Of a stretch of DNA of 9,784 nt, positions 775 to 9,784 are shown in pieces. Location: NCBI GenBank assembly GCA_025774865.1, contig JALGZO010000300.1, forward strand, positions 1 through 9,784, written 5' to 3'. The DNA comes from a bacterium (lineage in GTDB: Bacteria; ARS69). Below the pieces are notes generated by a model. The model was not told the DNA's origin, searched no databases, and was given only the letters and a program-made list of their open reading frames with translations. Position numbers and translations under genes: made by a program. How positions within the stretch are numbered: position 1 is the stretch's first letter; each line of letters opens with the position of its first letter.

Positions 775-2757
775 ATGGCTCGGCACGTACGTATCGACGA
801 TCTGTTCCGATTCATTCTGCCCGGCTCTCCCGCGCTGTCTCCCGACGGCGAGAGGATCGCGTTTTGCGTCAAGCGTGTGAACAAGAAGGAAAACCGATAC
901 GAGTCGCACCTGTGGCTCGTCCCGACGAAGGGAGGCCGGCCGCGGCAGCTCACGCGGGGGCTCGTCCTGGACACGTCGCCGGCGTGGAGCCCGAACGGCA
1001 AGACCCTGGCGTTCCTTTCGGATCGTAGTGAGGCACCCCAGGTCTGGACCCTGTCTCTCGAGGGTGGTGAACCACGGCGGCTGACTTCGTTCGGGGGCGG
1101 ACCGATCGCGGAACTCTCATGGTCGCCGATCGGCCGGGAGGTCGTCTTCCAGCACTTTCCGGTGCCCAAGATCTCCGAGGACGAGCGGAAGAGGCGCGCG
1201 ACGTTCAAGCACATCACGCGACTCTGGCACAAGGAGGACGGCTTCGGCTGGTACGCGGACGAGTGGTGGGGGGTGTTCCGAGCGAGCGTTCCGGCCGGGC
1301 GAACGAAACGGCTGACGGCCCGGGACCACCACGCGACGTCGCCCCGGTGGAACCCGAACGGCCAGCGAATCGCGTACGTATCGAGCGGCGGCGACCAGCT
1401 CGCGAATACGCCGGACCTCAGCACGATCTGCATGGTGAACCGCGGCGGCACCGGTCTCCGGAACATCACGCCGACGTCCGGGCAGCGGGACGCGCCGCGG
1501 TGGAGCGCGAATGGCAAGTATCTGTACTGGATCGGCTACGAGGGCAAGACCGGTGAATGGCTCGATCACGAGCACTCGGTCTGGCGAACGAGGGTGTCCG
1601 GCGGATCGCCGGTCGCGCTGAACCCGGGGCACGATCGGTGGGCGATGAACATGGTCGGCTCGGACGCGACGTCGTCGATGGCGACCATGATGGAGGTCTA
1701 CCAGGACACGGGCGAGGAACGCGTCGTGTTCGGCTCGGACGAAGACGGTAGCTACCGCCTCTACTCCGTCGCGGGCGATGGCGGCGACATCCGTCCCGAG
1801 CTCGAAGGAAACGTGTCGGTGCTCGGACTCTCGGTCGGCAGCGGTGAGCGCCCGGCGGCCGCGGCCGTCATCGGAACGCCGCGCGACACCGGCGAAGTCT
1901 ACCGGGTGCCGCTCGACGGAACCGGCGGCTTCGCTCCGCTCACGAACCTGACGAAACCGTTTTTCGCTCCGCTCCGCTGGCGCGAGCCGGAAGAGTTCCG
2001 CCTGAAGAACGGGAAGATCGATCTGCAGTGCTGGGTGCTGAAGCCTCCCCGCTTCAGCCGCAGCCGCAAATATCCCTGCCTCATCGAGGTCCACGGTGGC
2101 CCGATGACCCAGTACGGCGACGCGTGGTTCCACGAGATGCAGGTGCTCGCGGCGCAGGGGTGGGTGGTCGCGTATTGCAATCCGCGCGGCAGCTCCGGTC
2201 GCGGCAAGAAGTTCTGCAACGTCATCGAGGGCGACTGGGGCAACCGGGATTGGAGCGACGTGCAGGCGCTCACGAACCACATGGTGCGACGGCGGTACGT
2301 GGACTCGAAACGAATGGGGATGCTCGGCGGCAGCTACGGCGGATACATGACGACGTGGGCCGTCGCGCACACGAATCGTTTCCGGGCGGCCGTCACACAG
2401 CGCCAGGCCGGCGACTTCTGGGTCCACTGGGGCTCGAGCGACTACGGGCACATGCGAACGGGTTTCTTCGGTGGCAAGCACCCCTGGCAGGCGCCCGCCG
2501 CCTACCACCAGCAGTCTCCCAACTTTCACGTGAAGAACATCAAGACACCGCTGCTCATCATTCACTCCGAGGGCGACCTGCGCTGCCCCATCGCGGAGAG
2601 CGAAGCGCTCTTCACGGCGATGAAAGTGCTCGACCAGGCGCCTTGCGAGATGGTGCGTTTCGAAGGCGAGTTCCACGGATTGTCGCGGGGCGGGAAGCCG
2701 CTGAACCGGGAAGAGCGCCTCGAGAGGATCGTCGACTGGTTCGAGAGGTACCTCTAG
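775..2757 (+). CDS. S9 family serine peptidase (prolyl oligopeptidase / acylaminoacyl-peptidase type)
   Basis: This 660-residue protein has the two-domain plan of S9C oligopeptidases. Residues about 15-390 form a beta-propeller with repeated WD40-like PD40 signatures (LSPDGERIAF at 21-30, WSPNGKTLAF at 71-80, WNPNGQRIAY at 192-201, WSANGKYLYW at 243-252). Residues about 415-660 are an alpha/beta hydrolase domain. The catalytic triad is visible: Ser520 in GGSYGGYM, Asp601 in EGDLRCP, a form typical of the S9C branch, and His634 in GEFHGLS. The oxyanion-hole element HGGP is at 440-443, and NPRGSSGRG follows at 469-477. It should cleave short peptides, perhaps removing N-acylated residues or dipeptides. 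No signal peptide is seen, so it is probably cytoplasmic. GGAG at 762-765 lies 9 bases before the ATG and supports the start. The HD-domain gene follows after 2 bases, so the two are likely co-transcribed. Exact peptide specificity is not readable from sequence. Confidence 0.95.
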   Translation: MARHVRIDDLFRFILPGSPALSPDGERIAFCVKRVNKKENRYESHLWLVPTKGGRPRQLTRGLVLDTSPAWSPNGKTLAFLSDRSEAPQVWTLSLEGGEPRRLTSFGGGPIAELSWSPIGREVVFQHFPVPKISEDERKRRATFKHITRLWHKEDGFGWYADEWWGVFRASVPAGRTKRLTARDHHATSPRWNPNGQRIAYVSSGGDQLANTPDLSTICMVNRGGTGLRNITPTSGQRDAPRWSANGKYLYWIGYEGKTGEWLDHEHSVWRTRVSGGSPVALNPGHDRWAMNMVGSDATSSMATMMEVYQDTGEERVVFGSDEDGSYRLYSVAGDGGDIRPELEGNVSVLGLSVGSGERPAAAAVIGTPRDTGEVYRVPLDGTGGFAPLTNLTKPFFAPLRWREPEEFRLKNGKIDLQCWVLKPPRFSRSRKYPCLIEVHGGPMTQYGDAWFHEMQVLAAQGWVVAYCNPRGSSGRGKKFCNVIEGDWGNRDWSDVQALTNHMVRRRYVDSKRMGMLGGSYGGYMTTWAVAHTNRFRAAVTQRQAGDFWVHWGSSDYGHMRTGFFGGKHPWQAPAAYHQQSPNFHVKNIKTPLLIIHSEGDLRCPIAESEALFTAMKVLDQAPCEMVRFEGEFHGLSRGGKPLNREERLERIVDWFERYL

Positions 2758-2759
2758 TC

Positions 2760-3350
2760 GTGACGCCGCCGGACGGGAGCGGCCGCGCGACGTCATCCGA
2801 AAGAGGCACGGTCCCCCGGGAGTGGGTCCGGGATCTTCTGCAGCTCAAGCGGACGACTCGGGCGGGCTGGCTCCGAGTGGGCGTCGAGCGTCCGGAGTCG
2901 GTCGCCGACCACAGCTTCGCGATGGCGCTCTTGGCGTGGCGGATCGCGCGCGACGTCCCCGGTCTGGACGCGTCTCGCGTCGTGCTCCTGGCGTTGCTCC
3001 ACGACTTCCACGAAGCGCGTCTCGGCGACATTCCCACGCCCACGAAGACCCACTTTCCCGAGGGCGCGATCGAAGAGGCCGAGCGCAGCATCGCGACCGA
3101 GCAGTGGCCGCCGGGCGATGCCGCCGCGGAGCTTCTCGAGGAGTTCACGAACGGCGACTCACCCGAGGCGGAGCTCGCGCGGGCGATCGATCATCTGGAG
3201 TTTCTGCTCCAGGCGTCGGCGTATTTGGAAGCGGGGAATCCTCAGGTCGAACGAATGCTACAACGGGCGAAGAACGGAGCCGCCTGGCGACACCCGGTGA
3301 CGCGACCCTGGGCAGAAGAGATTCTTCGAGGGCCGCCCGCCGCGTGCTAG
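2760..3350 (+). CDS. HD-domain phosphohydrolase, HDDC2 / YfbR-like (probable 5'-deoxynucleotidase)
   Basis: This 196-residue protein resembles the HDDC2/YfbR group, which removes phosphate from deoxynucleoside 5'-monophosphates using a divalent metal. The opening LLQLKRTTRAGW...PESVADHS is typical of that group. Metal-binding residues can be placed at His51 (ADHS), His81-Asp82 (LLHDFHEARLGD) and Asp144 (ARAIDHLEFLLQA), and Glu85 in HDFHE is the usual acidic helper. The later HLEFLLQASAY segment also matches the family. The start is taken as GTG at 2760, 2 bases after the peptidase stop, with GAGAGG at 2743-2748 as a possible ribosome binding site inside the peptidase gene. The frame stays open upstream, but that part overlaps the peptidase and has a shadow composition. 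The stop overlaps the stop of the convergent sulfotransferase. Nucleotide-pool cleaning is the likely role; substrate preference is inferred from the family. Confidence 0.88.
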   Translation: MTPPDGSGRATSSERGTVPREWVRDLLQLKRTTRAGWLRVGVERPESVADHSFAMALLAWRIARDVPGLDASRVVLLALLHDFHEARLGDIPTPTKTHFPEGAIEEAERSIATEQWPPGDAAAELLEEFTNGDSPEAELARAIDHLEFLLQASAYLEAGNPQVERMLQRAKNGAAWRHPVTRPWAEEILRGPPAAC

Positions 3351-3958
3351 CGCCGGTTCCGGTACAGTCTCTCGTCGACCACGCCCGTCATCTTGTCGAT
3401 GTCCATCGGCAGGTCGAGAAACGCCTTGATGCGCTCGGCCGTGTGCCGCGCGTCGTTCAGGGCGTCCTTGTACTTGATATCCATCACCTCGAACTGCGGG
3501 CCCATCTTCAGGAGACGACGCACCTGCGCGAGATGACCGGCGTAGATGTCCGTCATCCGATCGTCTTCAGTCTCGTCGACCTCGCCGCGCCGGTCGAGCA
3601 TCTTGGCCTGAGACGCGAGAACCTCCTCGATGTTCCGGACCATGAACAGAATCCGGTAGTTGTTGTCCTCGGGGAGGTCCTTGAGGAGGAAGGAGATGAT
3701 CTTGACCGCCTTGCCCCGGGCCTCCTTCAGCCACTCCTTCTCGTCCGATTTGTCGAGCTCCTTCACCTTCTCGAGCTCGAAGTAGCCCTTGGGGTTGTCC
3801 TCGTCGGCGGTGCGGATGCCGTCCATCAGGAGAGGCACGCCACCGGCCTCCAGCATCTTCATGCACATGGACGTGCCCGATCGGGGCAGGCCGGAGACCA
3901 CGACGATCGGGGCGCCGTGTTTCAGCTTGCGCAGGGAACGCTGGAGGAAGCCGGCCAT
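3347..3958 (-). CDS. P-loop sulfotransferase family protein
   Basis: With the start at 3958 the product has 203 residues. Near the N-terminus, VVVSGLPRSGTSMCMKML (residues 19-36) contains the 5'-phosphosulfate-binding loop PRSGTS of PAPS-dependent sulfotransferases. RILFMVRNIEEVLASQ (102-117) matches the 3'-phosphate-binding region, with Arg108 and Ser116. The middle part (DEDNPKGYFELEKVKEL) is characteristic of a bacterial subgroup of short sulfotransferases. No signal or membrane segment is seen, so it is cytoplasmic. The ATG at 3958 was preferred because a purine-rich GGGGCGAGAG lies just upstream and the homologous-looking part begins there. An in-frame TTG at 4075 would add 39 residues of low-complexity character. 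The gene is divergent from the AlkP-type gene at 4123 and convergent with the HD gene. The acceptor (lipid, sugar or protein) is unknown. Some members of this P-loop group are annotated without proven sulfotransferase activity. Confidence 0.85.
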   Translation of the reverse strand: MAGFLQRSLRKLKHGAPIVVVSGLPRSGTSMCMKMLEAGGVPLLMDGIRTADEDNPKGYFELEKVKELDKSDEKEWLKEARGKAVKIISFLLKDLPEDNNYRILFMVRNIEEVLASQAKMLDRRGEVDETEDDRMTDIYAGHLAQVRRLLKMGPQFEVMDIKYKDALNDARHTAERIKAFLDLPMDIDKMTGVVDERLYRNRR

Positions 3959-4122: not shown

Positions 4123-6303
4123 ATGAGCCGATACGCAAGACAGCCGCGCAGAACGGCCCCCAGCGCACCACCCCGGCTCCCCGGCCAGCGACTCGGCGCC
4201 GCGTTCGGGCTCTGTCTCCTGGGACTCGTGGTCTGGCCGGTCGCGGCTCACGCGTACGTGGGACCTGGCGCCGGCTTCGCGCTTCTCTCGTCCTTCATGG
4301 TGGTGTTCATCACCGCCCTGATCGCGTTCGCGGCGCTGCTGGCCTGGCCGTTCCGGACGCTCTGGAAGGCGCTGCGCCACCGTCGCAAGGGGAAGCCGTT
4401 CGTCAAGCGGCTGATCGTGGTCGGGCTCGACGGTCAGGACCCGCGCCTCACCGACCGCTTCCTGGAAGAAGGCAAGCTCCCGAACTTCCGAAAGCTCGCG
4501 GACCGCGGCTGCTATACGAGGCTCGAGTCGACGTATCCGTCGGTGTCGCCCGTCGCGTGGTCGTCGTTCAGCACCGGGACTCATCCCGCGAAACACAACA
4601 TCTTCGACTTCTTGGATCGGGACCTGCGGACATACCTGCCGGTGTTGTCGTCGGCGAAGATCGGGAAGATCGAGAAGTTCCTGAAGCTCGGCCCGTTCAA
4701 GATCCCGCTGCAAAAGCCGGAGCTCACGCTCCTCCGGAAATCGAAACCGTTCTGGACGATCCTGGGGGAGGCCAACATCTGGAGCACGGTGTTGCGCGTG
4801 CCCATCACGTTCCCCCCGGACAAGTTCTACGGCGCACAACTCGGCGCGATGTCGATCCCCGATCTGCTCGGCACCCAGGGTACGTTCCTGCTCTTCACGA
4901 CTCGCGACGCGAGCGAGGGGTTCAAGGAAGGCGGCATGCGGGTGGCGCTCACGAACGGTACGCCCAACAACTACTCGGCGGCGGTGCCCGGCCCGAACAA
5001 CATGTTCCGCGAGGGAGATCCGGAGCTCACGATTCCGATCCAGCTGGAGGTCGACCGAGAGTCGCGGCGGGTGCGAGTATCGCTCAATGGCGAAAATCAC
5101 GACCTGTCCGAGCACGAGCTCTCCGATTGGATCCCGTTGAAGTACCACGCGGCTCCGGGCGTCAACGTGCAGGGGCTCTGTCGCATGATGGTGACGGAGC
5201 TCGACGAGCACGTGTCGATGTACGTCACGCCGATCTCGATCGACCCCGAGAAGCCGGCGATGCCCATCTCGCATCCGTCGTACTACTCCACGTACCTCGC
5301 CAAGAAAGTCGGGCCGTACTGCACGCTCGGCCTGGCGGAAGACACGTGGGCGCTCAACGAGAAGATCACGGACGACGCCGTCTTCTTGAAGCAAGCCTAC
5401 GACATCGACGACGAGCGCAAGACGATGTTCTTCTCCGCCCTCGAAAGGCTCCAGCAGGGCACTCTCACGTGCGTGTTCGACGGCACCGATCGGATCCAGC
5501 ACATGTTCTGGCGCTACCTGGAGGACGGCCATCCGGCGGCCCGCGGCCGAGAAGACGCCGAGCATCGGAACGCGATCGAAGAACTGTACAAGCGGAACGA
5601 TGAGCTCGTCGGGCGGGTCATGGAGAAGCTTCGCGACGGCGACCTTCTCATGGTCCTCTCCGACCACGGGTTCACGTCGTTCCGTCGCGGCGTCAACTTG
5701 AACCGGTGGCTCCTCGACCACGGCTACCTCGCGCTGAAGGAAGGAACCGACGGCACGTCGGAGTGGCTCCGCGATGTCGACTGGTCGAAGACGAGGGCCT
5801 ATTCGCTCGGCCTCACCGGCATGTTCCTGAATCTCCAGGGACGAGAGGGCGAGGGAATCGTGAAGCCGGGGAACGAAGCCCAAGCACTGAAGGCGGAGAT
5901 CATCGAGAGACTCTCCGAACTCCGCGACGAGGAGAAGAGCGAAACCGGCATCAACGAGGCCTTCGAGACGGCAAAGCTCTACCAGGGACCGTACCTGGAG
6001 AACGCCCCCGATCTCCTCATCGGGTACAACCACGGCTACCGGGTGTCTTGGGACTGCGCGACCGGGGTGGTGGCCGGACCCGTCTTCGAGGACAACGCCA
6101 AGGCCTGGAGTGGCGACCACTGTGTGGATCCCCGCCTCGTCCCGGGCGTGTTCTTCTGCAATCGTGAGATCGACCGCGAGGATCCCGCTCTCATCGACAT
6201 CGCGCCGACGGCGCTCCGGCTCTTCGGACTCGTCCCGCCGCCCCACATGGACGGCAAGCCGCTCTTCGACGACGAAACCTTGGCGTCGGTCGGTGGTTCG
6301 TAG
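4123..6303 (+). CDS. Membrane-anchored AlkP-superfamily phosphohydrolase/phosphomutase-type protein (COG3379-like)
   Basis: This 726-residue protein is the first of two tandem paralogues. A basic N-terminus is followed by two hydrophobic helices (about 25-43 and 52-76) joined by AHAYVGPGAG, and then by a strongly basic stretch (78-96). The catalytic domain starts at about 97. The bimetal centre of the alkaline phosphatase superfamily is complete: Asp103 (GLDGQD), nucleophile Ser142 (VSPVAW), Asp456 and His460 (FDGTDRIQH), Asp514-His515 (LSDHGF) and His666 (SGDHC). The SPVAW...STGTHPAKHNIFDF block is typical of the COG3379 group, predicted phosphohydrolases or phosphomutases. The reaction should be hydrolysis or transfer of a phosphate, phosphodiester or sulfate group; the substrate is unknown. 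The charge pattern places both ends of the helical hairpin inside, so the catalytic domain is predicted to be cytoplasmic. No clear ribosome binding site precedes the ATG, and a promoter-like motif lies about 17 bases upstream. The gene leads a five-gene run. Confidence 0.9.
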   Translation: MSRYARQPRRTAPSAPPRLPGQRLGAAFGLCLLGLVVWPVAAHAYVGPGAGFALLSSFMVVFITALIAFAALLAWPFRTLWKALRHRRKGKPFVKRLIVVGLDGQDPRLTDRFLEEGKLPNFRKLADRGCYTRLESTYPSVSPVAWSSFSTGTHPAKHNIFDFLDRDLRTYLPVLSSAKIGKIEKFLKLGPFKIPLQKPELTLLRKSKPFWTILGEANIWSTVLRVPITFPPDKFYGAQLGAMSIPDLLGTQGTFLLFTTRDASEGFKEGGMRVALTNGTPNNYSAAVPGPNNMFREGDPELTIPIQLEVDRESRRVRVSLNGENHDLSEHELSDWIPLKYHAAPGVNVQGLCRMMVTELDEHVSMYVTPISIDPEKPAMPISHPSYYSTYLAKKVGPYCTLGLAEDTWALNEKITDDAVFLKQAYDIDDERKTMFFSALERLQQGTLTCVFDGTDRIQHMFWRYLEDGHPAARGREDAEHRNAIEELYKRNDELVGRVMEKLRDGDLLMVLSDHGFTSFRRGVNLNRWLLDHGYLALKEGTDGTSEWLRDVDWSKTRAYSLGLTGMFLNLQGREGEGIVKPGNEAQALKAEIIERLSELRDEEKSETGINEAFETAKLYQGPYLENAPDLLIGYNHGYRVSWDCATGVVAGPVFEDNAKAWSGDHCVDPRLVPGVFFCNREIDREDPALIDIAPTALRLFGLVPPPHMDGKPLFDDETLASVGGS

Positions 6304-6324
6304 TGTGGTCCCGGCGATGAGCGC

Positions 6325-6330
6325 AGGAGG
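6325..6330 (+). promoter_or_regulatory. Ribosome binding site that fixes the second AlkP-type start
   Basis: A consensus AGGAGG lies 7 bases before the ATG at 6338. An earlier in-frame ATG at 6317 lies upstream of this site and would add only seven residues in front of the signal peptide, so 6338 is the better start. Confidence 0.8.
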
Positions 6331-6337
6331 TCCCCCG

Positions 6338-8353
6338 ATGAAAGAGACACGCATCCTCGCCACCGCGGTGGTCTTGAGCGCGCTTCTCGCTCCGGTCGTC
6401 GTGGCCGACGTGGCCGAGGCGAAAGAGGAAAGGAAGGTCATCGTGCTCGGGTTCGACGGTCTCGACTATGAGCTCGTGCGGGATCTCATGGACGATGGTC
6501 GGCTTCCGAACTTCGCGCGGATGATCCAGCGCGGTACATTCGGGCCGCTCGGTACTTCGATCCCGCCGCAGAGCCCGGTTGCCTGGTCGAACTTCATCAC
6601 GGGCATGGACGCCGGTGGGCACGGCATCTTCGACTTCATCCACCGCGACCCCAAGACCATGATTCCGTACCTCTCCACGAGTCGCCCGGCCGACGCGGAC
6701 GCCGAGCCGATGAAGCTCGGGAAGTACCAGCTGCCGAAGGGCGGCGGCTTCGAGCTCCTTCGTCACGGCCGGGCGTTCTGGGAGGTGCTCGAGGAGAACG
6801 GAATCGAGACCACGGTGCTCCGGATGCCGGCGAATTTCCCGCCCTCGGGAACGGCGAGCCGCGAGCTCAGCGGGATGGGGACGCCCGACGTACTCGGTAC
6901 GTACGGGACCTTCTCGTTCTGGACGACCGATCGGTCGCCATTCGCCGGACGTAACGTCTCGGGCGGCAAGGTCTACGGTGCCCGGGTGCGCAACAACGTC
7001 GTGAAGGCGTCGATCTACGGACCCACGAACCCGTACCTCGCCGAAGCCGAGAAGGTGAAAACGGACTTCGCCGTGCACCTCGATCCCGAAGAGCCGTTCG
7101 CGAAGCTCGTGATCGGCGCCGAGGAACGTATTCTGAAAGAGGGCGAATGGTCCGACTGGGTTCCGATCGAGTTCGAGCTGGCGCCGAACTGGGCGTTCAA
7201 GTTGCTCGATCCGCTCGGCATCCCCCAGACGCTTCCCGTGATGTGCCGGTTCTATCTGAAGCAGGTACGGCCGGAGTTCATGTTGTACGCGTCGCCGGCC
7301 AACATCGACCCGATGAATCCGGCGTTCCCCATCTCCACCCCGCCTTCGTACGCGGCCGAGCTCGCGAAAGGGGCCGGGCGCTTCTACACCCAGGGCATGA
7401 TGGAAGAGACGAAAGGCCTCACGGAGGAAGTGCTGACGCAGGAGGAGTTCCTGACGCAGGCGAAGATCGCCGGCCAGGAGATCGTCGATCAGTACGCTTA
7501 CGTGCTCCGCAACTTCGAGAAGGGTTTCCTCTTCTACTACTTCGGGAACCAGGACCAAACGGGTCACATGATCTGGAAGTCGATGGACCCCGAGCACCCG
7601 GCGTACCGCGACCAGGACGCGGCGTTCGCGAACGTCATTCCGAAGATATACGAGGAGCTCGACAAGATCGTGGGCCTGACGCTCGGGGCGATCGACGACG
7701 AGACCACGCTCATCGTGATGTCGGATCACGGCTTCGCGAGCTGGCGCCGCGCCATGAACCTCAATTCCTGGCTCCACCAGAACGGCTATCTCGCTCTCAA
7801 GAACCCGGACATCCGCGACGACCCGGGTCTATTCCTGAACGTCGACTGGACCCGGACGAAGGCTTACGGACTGGGGCTCAACGGTCTGTACCTGAACCTT
7901 CGCGGCCGGGAGCGCTGGGGCACCGTGAACGAGTCGGACGTGGAGACGCTTCTCGCCGAGATCGGCGACAAGCTCCTCGCGACCGTCGATCCGGCGACGA
8001 ACCAGCGCGCCGTCACGAAGGTGTACCGGTCGGAGACCACATTCCGCCACCGGGATCACCTCGACATCGGCCCCGATCTCCTCGTCGGCTACGCCGAAGG
8101 AATGCGGTGCTCGAACCAGTCCGCGCTCGGCGAGGTTCCGCAGGAGGTCTTCACCGACAACGAGGACGAGTGGAGCGGCGACCATTGTATGGACCACGAG
8201 ACGGTTCCCGGCGTTCTGTTGACGAACCGCCCGCTGCAGCGCCCGGCCCCCGCGCTCGAGAACCTTGCCGCGGCGGTGCTCGCCGAGTTCGGAATCCACG
8301 GTTTCGCGGGCGAGGTGAAGGACGAGAACCTGGAGGCGGTCGCCTCGCAGTAG
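6338..8353 (+). CDS. Secreted AlkP-superfamily phosphohydrolase/phosphomutase-type protein, paralogue 2
   Basis: This 671-residue protein is a paralogue of the preceding gene product along its full catalytic domain. Shared blocks include SPVAWS, HGIFDF/HNIFDF, the TVLR-P-FPP segment, a PD(V/L)LGT-GTF segment, DHGF, GYLALK, VDW-T-AY-LGL, and WSGDHC-D---VPGV. The N-terminus is a classical Sec signal peptide: Lys2 and Arg5, a hydrophobic core at about 6-24, and a probable cut after AEA at 28. There is no second helix, so the mature enzyme should be periplasmic. The metal and nucleophile set is complete: Asp40 (GFDGLD), Ser79 (QSPVAW), Asp406 and His410 (NQDQTGH), Asp463-His464 (MSDHGF) and His616 (SGDHC). 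It probably acts on a phosphate, phosphodiester or sulfate ester in the envelope; the substrate is unknown. The gene starts 34 bases after the preceding stop behind a strong ribosome binding site and is likely in the same operon. The signal peptide could alternatively remain uncleaved as an anchor. Confidence 0.92.
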   Translation: MKETRILATAVVLSALLAPVVVADVAEAKEERKVIVLGFDGLDYELVRDLMDDGRLPNFARMIQRGTFGPLGTSIPPQSPVAWSNFITGMDAGGHGIFDFIHRDPKTMIPYLSTSRPADADAEPMKLGKYQLPKGGGFELLRHGRAFWEVLEENGIETTVLRMPANFPPSGTASRELSGMGTPDVLGTYGTFSFWTTDRSPFAGRNVSGGKVYGARVRNNVVKASIYGPTNPYLAEAEKVKTDFAVHLDPEEPFAKLVIGAEERILKEGEWSDWVPIEFELAPNWAFKLLDPLGIPQTLPVMCRFYLKQVRPEFMLYASPANIDPMNPAFPISTPPSYAAELAKGAGRFYTQGMMEETKGLTEEVLTQEEFLTQAKIAGQEIVDQYAYVLRNFEKGFLFYYFGNQDQTGHMIWKSMDPEHPAYRDQDAAFANVIPKIYEELDKIVGLTLGAIDDETTLIVMSDHGFASWRRAMNLNSWLHQNGYLALKNPDIRDDPGLFLNVDWTRTKAYGLGLNGLYLNLRGRERWGTVNESDVETLLAEIGDKLLATVDPATNQRAVTKVYRSETTFRHRDHLDIGPDLLVGYAEGMRCSNQSALGEVPQEVFTDNEDEWSGDHCMDHETVPGVLLTNRPLQRPAPALENLAAAVLAEFGIHGFAGEVKDENLEAVASQ

Positions 8354-8384: not shown

Positions 8385-8579
8385 ATGTTCGGCTCGAACA
8401 AGGTCAAGCTCGACAAGGACGTCATGGCCAAGGTCCGGCGCTACGCGGCACTGGCCGGGTACTCCTCGCCCGAGGAGTTCGTGATGCACGCCCTCGAGAA
8501 AGAGATCGCGAAGCTGGAAGACGCGGACTCCGAAGAGGACATCAAAAAGCGGCTGAAGGGTCTCGGCTACATCTCGTAG
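8385..8579 (+). CDS. Small ribbon-helix-helix-like protein (64 aa)
   Basis: This complete 64-residue gene is preceded by GGAGG at 8374-8378, 6 bases before the ATG, so it is very likely translated. The pattern VKLDKDVMAKVRRYAALAG (residues 7-25) followed by YSSPEEFVMHALEKEI (26-41) looks like a short beta-strand plus two helices, as in CopG/ParD/MetJ-type ribbon-helix-helix proteins. Residues 42-52 are very acidic, and the chain ends in KKRLKGLGYIS. That tail reminds me of the L-x-x-LGY(I/V) segment near the C-terminus of many AlkP-superfamily sulfatases; this is from memory and not searched. No toxin gene stands beside it, so it is not an obvious antitoxin. It lies 31 bases after the second AlkP-type gene and 15 bases before the membrane-protein gene. 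It could be an operon autoregulator or a small partner of its neighbours. The fold call is moderate; the function is unknown. Confidence 0.8.
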   Translation: MFGSNKVKLDKDVMAKVRRYAALAGYSSPEEFVMHALEKEIAKLEDADSEEDIKKRLKGLGYIS

Positions 8580-8594
8580 CCGCACACACGGAGA

Positions 8595-9437
8595 ATGCAG
8601 ATCGTCAACGCCATCCTTCGTCCGATCTTCGACGGTCTTCTCATGCCGTTCAAGGGACTCCACCCGCTGGTCGGGCTGACCGTCGTGTCGTTGCTCACGT
8701 CCGTGATGATGCTCGTCATGTTCAAGCGCACCTCGAACCAGGACAAGATCGCTGCCGTGAAGGCGAAGATCACGGCGGGTCTGTTCGAGATCCGTCTCTT
8801 CAACGACGATCTTCGGGCGATCTTCCGGGCGCAGGGTGAGATCCTCCGGCACAACCTGTCCTACCTCGGTCTCTCGCTCGTCCCGTTGCTCTGGATGATC
8901 GTGCCGATCGTCCTGATCATCGCGCAGCTCCAGTTTCATTACGGGTACCGGGGTCTGGAACCGGGTGAAGCGGCGCTGCTGACGGTGGAGCTTCGGGAAG
9001 ACTGGCCGGAGCGTCTCTCCGGCGGAGGGGTCGCCGGCAAGCCCGCGGTGGAGCTCAACGCTCCCGACGCTTTCCGTATCGACTCGCCGGCCGTTTGGTT
9101 GCCGTCTCTGGACGAGATCGTCTGGCGGATCACTCCCGAGAAGTACGGGGATTGGGAAGTCGGCGTGAAGCTCGGCGACGAGGAGTACTCGAAAGTGGTA
9201 CGAGTCTCCGACGAGATCGTGCGCCGCTCGCCATCACGGCTCGCCCCCGCGTTGCTCGACCAGGTACTCTACCCGGCCGAGCCTTCTCTACCGAAGCACA
9301 GCCCGATCCGGTCGATCGCGATATCGTATCCCGAGACCGGATCCGCCGCCGGTTTGCCGACATGGCTCTGGATCTTCTTCCTGCTCTCCATCGTGTTCGC
9401 CTTCGCGCTCAAGGGCCGGTTCGGCGTGAAGATCTGA
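8595..9437 (+). CDS. Three-helix membrane protein, Oxa1/EMC3-like N-terminal half with periplasmic insert
   Basis: The 280-residue product has hydrophobic helices at about 24-43, 89-112 and 255-273. Between the first two lies a basic, helical, coiled-coil-like segment (44-88, including TSNQDKIAAVKAKI and LRAIFRAQGEILRHN), which should be cytoplasmic. From about 114 to 254 there is a strand-rich soluble domain (GEAALLTVEL, EIVWRITPEKYGDWEVGVKL), predicted periplasmic and possibly immunoglobulin-like. A short basic tail (KGRFGVKI) ends inside. An N-out helix, a cytoplasmic coiled coil and a returning helix form the core layout of the Oxa1/EMC3/DUF106 membrane-insertase superfamily, so I suggest a distant relationship, unproven. 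GGAG abuts the ATG too closely for a normal ribosome binding site, so translation may depend on coupling with the small gene ending 15 bases upstream. Its place in the run suggests a role in the envelope with the AlkP-type proteins. Confidence 0.85.
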   Translation: MQIVNAILRPIFDGLLMPFKGLHPLVGLTVVSLLTSVMMLVMFKRTSNQDKIAAVKAKITAGLFEIRLFNDDLRAIFRAQGEILRHNLSYLGLSLVPLLWMIVPIVLIIAQLQFHYGYRGLEPGEAALLTVELREDWPERLSGGGVAGKPAVELNAPDAFRIDSPAVWLPSLDEIVWRITPEKYGDWEVGVKLGDEEYSKVVRVSDEIVRRSPSRLAPALLDQVLYPAEPSLPKHSPIRSIAISYPETGSAAGLPTWLWIFFLLSIVFAFALKGRFGVKI

Positions 9438-9451
9438 CGAGGAGAGATCAA

Positions 9452-9784
9452 GTGTCGAACGATTCGCGGAACGCACCACCCACCCTGCCCGAGGGAGTGA
9501 CAACCGTTCGGTCCGACAGTGGGTTGGAAATCGTCGAAGTCGTTGCGGGAGACGGTGCGACCGCCGAGCCCGGGAGCACGATTCGCGTTCGGTACCGTGC
9601 CTGGCTCGCCGAGGGCTCGCTCGTCGACGACACGGAACGACGCGGCGGGCCGGTCGAGCTGCACTTGGGTGAGGAACAGACCATTGCGGCTCTCGAAGAA
9701 GGCGTCGTGGGTATGCGGGTCGGCGGTCACCGTCGCCTCATTGCGCCCTCCGATCTCGCCTACGGGCCCACCGGTCACGGCGAC
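9452..9784 (+). CDS. FKBP-type peptidyl-prolyl cis-trans isomerase, 3' end outside window
   Basis: The frame starts at GTG 9452, with GGAG at 9441-9444 placed 7 bases upstream, and runs open to the last base (111 codons). The FKBP fold signature is clear: VRYRAWLAEGSLVDD (46-60), ELHLGEEQTI (69-78), LEEGVVGMRVGGHRRLIAP (81-99) and LAYGPTGHG (102-110). Only the last strand or so should be missing if it is a single-domain protein. FKBPs speed up rotation about Xaa-Pro bonds and often act as chaperones. No signal peptide is present, so it is probably cytoplasmic. Several pocket positions differ from the FKBP12 type: Val-Asp-Asp replaces Phe-Asp-Ser, Leu81 replaces the pocket-floor Trp or Phe, and Ala-Pro-Ser replaces Ile-Pro-Pro. 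Catalytic activity may therefore be altered. It starts 14 bases after the membrane-protein gene and probably belongs to the same transcript. Confidence 0.9.
   Translation, partial: MSNDSRNAPPTLPEGVTTVRSDSGLEIVEVVAGDGATAEPGSTIRVRYRAWLAEGSLVDDTERRGGPVELHLGEEQTIAALEEGVVGMRVGGHRRLIAPSDLAYGPTGHGD

Follow-up and report, generated by a model that had tools for sequence, protein, structure and literature searches.

The window, by which we mean the whole 9,784-nucleotide stretch analysed, carries four consecutive genes on the forward strand. The first two encode AlkP-superfamily paralogues: AlkP1 (4123..6303, 726 aa), assigned from PF01663, its catalytic residues and its AF2 fold, and AlkP2 (6338..8353, 671 aa), an exported paralogue recognized from PF01663, its export signals and its low Cys content. 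Only 34 bp separate them, and the likely AlkP2 start is the ATG at 6338, with AGGAGG upstream. They are followed by a 64-aa ribbon-helix-helix (RHH)-type protein with a C-terminal LGYIS (8385..8579; RHH profiles, alignment, synteny) and a 280-aa putative Oxa1-superfamily membrane protein (8595..9437; MJ0480 profile match, PF01956, AF2, synteny). Upstream, on the reverse strand, lies a divergently transcribed P-loop sulfotransferase (3347..3958, likely start 3958; PF13469, PAPS-binding motifs, synteny). The remainder of the window holds an S9 prolyl oligopeptidase-type gene that overlaps the HD-domain (YfbR-like) gene after it (775-3350) and, beginning 14 bp past the membrane protein gene, an FKBP-type PPIase (9452-9784) that may be co-transcribed in the source genome. 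That genome is a fragmented assembly with 8.3% contamination.

A single scan of GTDB genomes with AlkP1 as query returned 368 relatives, 80 of which were retained. These relatives belong to Acidobacteriota (among them Thermoanaerobaculia, Vicinamibacteria, and Holophagales), Gemmatimonadota, candidate division B38, and further taxa. The gene order AlkP1-AlkP2-small RHH protein-membrane protein recurs in Acidobacteriota, Gemmatimonadota, and several other phyla, and its carriers are known almost wholly from metagenomes. Operon completeness was scored on the 56 loci in which 5.2 kb or more follows AlkP1. These loci are not independent, since related genomes contribute many of them. Genes for the 64-aa protein and for the 280-aa membrane protein lie on the same strand in 56/56 each, and AlkP2 is present in 55/56. 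The single exception, L033, and another locus, L070, have no AlkP2 adjoining AlkP1; loss of AlkP2 was considered for both and rejected, as each genome carries an AlkP2-like gene elsewhere (41–42% identity). The membrane-protein ORF of L033 is broken by masked bases. Our literature search for a description of this operon found none.

Both enzymes score far above the PF01663 cutoff of 23 bits (109 bits for AlkP1, 118 bits for AlkP2) and are 37% identical to each other. The seven active-site residues that the earlier note had named in each, Asp103/Ser142/Asp456/His460/Asp514/His515/His666 in AlkP1 and Asp40/Ser79/Asp406/His410/Asp463/His464/His616 in AlkP2, are correctly numbered. These positions read D/S(T)/D/H/D/H/H in 87 AlkP1 and 74 AlkP2 sequences (a few alignment rows are gapped), the sole substitution being Ser142 to Thr in six AlkP1s. 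The AF2 model of AlkP1 (pLDDT 88.9) has the NPP/ENPP fold and matches ENPP7, ENPP5, Xac NPP, ENPP6, SPAP, PafA, and PhnA with tied scores (Z ∼25–26); as modelled, AlkP1 is of the NPP type and carries a large insert. Judged by sequence, both proteins belong to the NPP branch of the AlkP superfamily, and phosphodiesterase-type activity is predicted. AlkP1 has a fold like that of NPP/ENPP enzymes (Xac NPP, ENPP6, ENPP7, and phosphonoacetate hydrolase PhnA; ∼350 residues aligned), and the two-metal D-S/T-D-H-D-H-H site is common to that branch and to AlkP1 and AlkP2. However, the pair differs in its Ser nucleophile, a large insert that splits the PF01663 match, an identity of only 14–19%, and, for AlkP1, a hairpin anchor predicted to place the domain in the cytoplasm. 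A formylglycine sulfatase (PF00884) was excluded for both proteins because the nucleophile context is SPVAW; the C/S-x-P-x-R nucleophile motif is absent. A literature search for COG3379 found no papers. The source genome shows a very large AlkP/sulfatase-type expansion, with 63 PF01663 match pieces in dozens of ORFs.

The N-termini of the two paralogues point to different compartments. In AlkP1, the N-terminal hairpin (4183..4410, delimited from homologues and AF2) comprises a first helix with AxA, a YVGPGAG loop, a second helix, and the basic run RHRRKGKPFVKR, which lies at residues 85-96 as previously claimed; AF2 places the helices at 21-37 and 48-85. All 81 homologues with a readable motif have the same order (signal-like helix, AxA, YxGPGAG, second helix, basic run) and an uncharged loop, so the two-helix hairpin with basic flanks described from one sequence is an invariant architecture, kept to a degree well above chance expectation. 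Two loci, L108 and L112, fall outside this count, their motif search having failed (N-terminus probably mis-called; YAGPGAG). An AxA-like site stands ahead of the Tyr in 80/81 homologues, and the segment joining helix 2 to the catalytic domain averages 7.9 K/R against 0.16 D/E across the 81. Within the source genome, the YxGPGAG motif was found in AlkP1 only. From the hairpin of all 81 homologues, the AlkP1 catalytic domain is predicted to be cytoplasmic with or without cleavage of helix 1, in agreement with the earlier note.

AlkP2 is predicted to be periplasmic, and each of the 72 readable homologue N-termini is an export signal, which upholds the view that it is exported. Its description as a simple Sec protein is accurate for the window copy, which has an SPI-type signal, and for close relatives, but does not extend to the family, where most homologues are lipoproteins and a few use Tat. 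A lipobox occurs in most of the 72 (50 caught by a regular expression) and a Tat signal in three, while several of the 19 classed as ‘other’ also have a Cys after the hydrophobic stretch. Cys content of the catalytic domains is 0.94% in AlkP1 vs 0.23% in AlkP2, compared with 0.80% in the signal-less AlkP3/AlkP4 and 0.32% in exported AlkP/sulfatase proteins of the source genome. These Cys and charge arguments, drawn from sequence, are statistical in nature.

We looked across the operon family for homologous pairs whose members share an N-terminal type and found none. Opposite compartments are thus well supported, by the N-termini of ∼80 homologues, by Cys content, and by the reciprocal monophyly described below, and we strongly infer that the AlkP1 catalytic domain would lie in the cytoplasm and that of AlkP2 in the periplasm. 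Were AlkP1 misassigned, both domains would be periplasmic and the tandem pair ordinary. Most membrane-anchored NPP-family enzymes do act outside, and in one distant relative (L122) an additional, third helix at the N-terminus would place the domain outside; nevertheless, the constancy of two helices, basic flanks on either side, and an uncharged loop, together with the Cys contrast and its calibration, makes such a misassignment very improbable.

The joint alignment of AlkP1 and AlkP2 contains 84 near-invariant columns that are identical across both families, against only four that are fixed but different (S207/G144, T229/N166, A242/G179, and V451/Y401). The proposal that the pair performs matched chemistry is supported as far as the 84 columns go, and qualified by the four, which mean that the substrates could differ. 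In a quick ML tree, one branch sets apart all AlkP1s and another all AlkP2s (SH-aLRT 95 for each), AlkP3/AlkP4 lying at a distance from both. Such reciprocal clades indicate that a single old duplication fixed the compartment split; a duplication predating the divergence of the phyla is the simplest reading of these sequences, which support the opposite-compartment arrangement as an ancient property of the pair. If the predicted topology is right, the locus is a clear example from nature of a duplicated enzyme whose copies became fixed on the two sides of a membrane.

The membrane protein of the window has no Pfam family match, PF01956 included; EMC3_TMCO1 (PF01956) is matched by 13 of 48 homologues (best 2e-5). 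A profile of the family matches MJ0480 (PDB 5c8j) with E 8.5e-10 over TM1-hairpin-TM2, and the match at TM3 is collinear and weak. The AF2 model (pLDDT 95.2; helices 24-46, 49-68, 73-116, and 256-272) shows a three-TM core with a cytoplasmic helical hairpin between TM1 and TM2, the arrangement that defines the Oxa1 superfamily (PMC8675477). The hairpin has a net charge of +4.1, and a beta domain at ∼118-208, between TM2 and TM3, resembles filamin/Ig repeats (Z ∼5). From the charge distribution, the predicted topology is N-out, hairpin in, Ig domain out, and C-in. Foldseek and VIA searches with the whole model matched almost only the Ig/filamin-like domain and listed no Oxa1 chain, which we take as a limit of that search, given that MJ0480 is recovered with the sequence profile. 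On sequence grounds, we place the protein in the archaeal Ylp1/DUF106-EMC3-TMCO1 branch of the Oxa1 superfamily. The core and cytoplasmic hairpin are common to Ylp1/DUF106 (MJ0480, PDB 5c8j) and EMC3/TMCO1 (PF01956), whereas the present protein is bacterial, carries the filamin/Ig-like periplasmic domain between TM2 and TM3, and sits in an operon with two AlkP enzymes. Members of PF01956 are treated as archaeal or eukaryotic (PMC8675477). The locus places an EMC3/Ylp1-type Oxa1 protein in bacteria alongside canonical YidC, which is encoded separately in the source genome.

Among the 48 membrane-protein sequences, the cores of TM1 and TM3 have no charged residue and TM2 has no conserved one; a YidC-type positive groove residue is absent, K/R occurring in only 6/48, at one TM2 position. 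The groove of YidC-family proteins contains a conserved positive residue (PMC8920935), and the lack of one in these TM cores makes YidC-like insertion doubtful. Oxa1-superfamily insertases can also scramble lipids in vitro (PMC10491306), and the locus is therefore well suited to asking whether scrambling is the real job of any Oxa1-family protein.

The genomic context links the operon to sulfation. The sulfotransferase (PF13469, E 1.2e-10) has the PAPS motifs GLPRSGTS (5'-PSB) and RNxxEVxxSQ (3'-PB; R147...S155), which are conserved in 66 sequences, and it lies upstream of the operon on the opposite strand in 54 of the 66 loci with room for it. APS kinase, ATP sulfurylase, or CysQ-like genes occur near the operon at ∼14 loci in varying layouts, a clustering with a chance probability of ∼1e-9 if one assumes 0.5% per locus and 7 independent groups of 40. 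At L105, L115, and L116, the genes form a continuous run, sat-AlkP3-apsK-AlkP4-AlkP1-AlkP2-small-mem; the APS kinase of that run is the only match in one genome (G046) and the only strong match in another (G028). Elsewhere, the operon adjoins a sulfate-type ABC transporter and sulfatases (L118) or a PAPS-reductase/CysD-type gene (L111). A strong APS kinase match was present in 10/10 other operon-bearing genomes examined vs 18/50 of the rest (p 1.7e-4, a value without kinship correction). In the source genome, which is fragmented and 92.65% complete, the APS kinase match is only marginal, so the PAPS link rests on the relatives and would apply to the window's own genome by analogy.

PAPS-dependent sulfation loci, for example those for sulfated capsules (PMC11641403), likewise combine sulfate-activation genes with a P-loop sulfotransferase, but the constant partners here are AlkP1, AlkP2, the RHH-type protein, and the Oxa1-type protein, and no polysaccharide-synthesis family was a constant operon neighbour among the neighbour families identified. 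The PAPS/sulfation genes and operon partners together constrain the substrate more than the AlkP pair alone. Signal-less AlkP3/AlkP4 genes lie beside APS kinase and ATP sulfurylase at 5484-9963 of L105, 12634-17144 of L115, and 11216-15735 of L116. Signal-less AlkPs also adjoin APS kinase and ATP sulfurylase at G005:C87, G018:C69, and G044:C82, in G005 and G018 without a full-length AlkP1 match.

Starting from the fold, the catalytic residues, the operon, the ancient duplication (quick tree), the Oxa1-superfamily core, and the PAPS-gene clustering, we favor with middling confidence a reading in which the four operon products (AlkP1, AlkP2, the RHH protein, and the Oxa1-type membrane protein) make up a single conserved system that processes a head group on both sides of the membrane, is linked to sulfation, and has an Oxa1-type helper. 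AlkP1 would be anchored in the inner membrane, its NPP-type active site toward the cytoplasm, and AlkP2, with a nearly identical invariant site, would work in the periplasm, usually lipid-anchored. Probably both act on the same kind of membrane-associated molecule, cleaving or transferring a phosphate-diester-type group, AlkP1 before and AlkP2 after the molecule crosses the membrane; an alternative target would be a sulfate ester, a chemistry found within the AlkP superfamily. A common kind of substrate is moderately well indicated, and the earlier suggestion of a lipid-linked or exported head group is plausible. The gene neighbors hint that the molecule may be sulfated in the cytoplasm by the PAPS-dependent sulfotransferase, although a sulfated product is only tentatively indicated. 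The three-TM Oxa1-type protein, its Ig-like domain facing AlkP2, probably serves the pair, perhaps by moving a lipid-linked substrate or by inserting or holding the short-loop hairpin of AlkP1; either role, scramblase or insertase, is likewise tentative.

The main rival dispenses with a lipid-linked substrate and assigns the enzymes to nucleotide housekeeping in sulfate activation. Cytoplasmic APS, PAPS, or pAp would be hydrolysed by AlkP1, joined by AlkP3/AlkP4 at loci that have them, and AlkP2 would scavenge by hydrolysing periplasmic nucleotides or sulfate/phosphate esters. NPP-fold members do cleave nucleotides, ATP sulfurylase and APS kinase are interleaved with signal-less AlkPs at L105, L115, and L116 and stand beside AlkPs in G005, G018, and G044, and CysQ-like genes occur at several loci. 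Yet AlkP1 is membrane-anchored in every operon homologue, which a soluble nucleotide would not require, the operon always includes a membrane protein for which such a substrate has no need, and pAp is already removed by CysQ. We consider this rival possible but doubtful.

Two further proposals turn on the membrane protein, and we give each little weight. It could be a dedicated insertase or chaperone for the AlkP1 hairpin, the phosphodiesterases serving general phosphate or lipid turnover and the sulfur link being incidental. Short uncharged translocated segments are known to suit Oxa1-type insertases, and the AlkP1 loop is of this kind in 81/81 homologues; the MJ0480 match and the separate canonical YidC also fit. 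An insertase with this one client, however, would leave both the large periplasmic Ig domain and the recurrent clustering with PAPS genes unexplained, and the uncharged TM1 and TM3 differ from the positive groove described for the YidC family (PMC8920935). Alternatively, and with in vitro scrambling by insertases as its basis, the cytoplasmic and periplasmic enzyme copies could act on opposite leaflets in a transmembrane head-group relay, with the Oxa1 protein moving a sulfated or phosphorylated lipid. If true, this would, to our knowledge, give the Oxa1 superfamily its first member devoted to the traffic of lipids or head groups.

The fourth constant member of the operon, the 64-aa protein, appears RHH-like from profile matches across its family: RHH_1 is matched by 13/38 homologues (best E 3e-5) and PSK_trans_fac by 17/38, the window's protein by itself giving only a sub-threshold PSK_trans_fac match. 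For most family members, identity to the window copy is 52–78%. The protein ends in LGYIS (8522-8579), and many exported AlkP/sulfatase proteins of the source genome end in an LGY-type sequence, as though a C-terminal tag were supplied in trans; the likeness might reflect a common docking site. At L116, another RHH protein, whose tail is LGYL (15765-16055), lies directly upstream of ATP sulfurylase.
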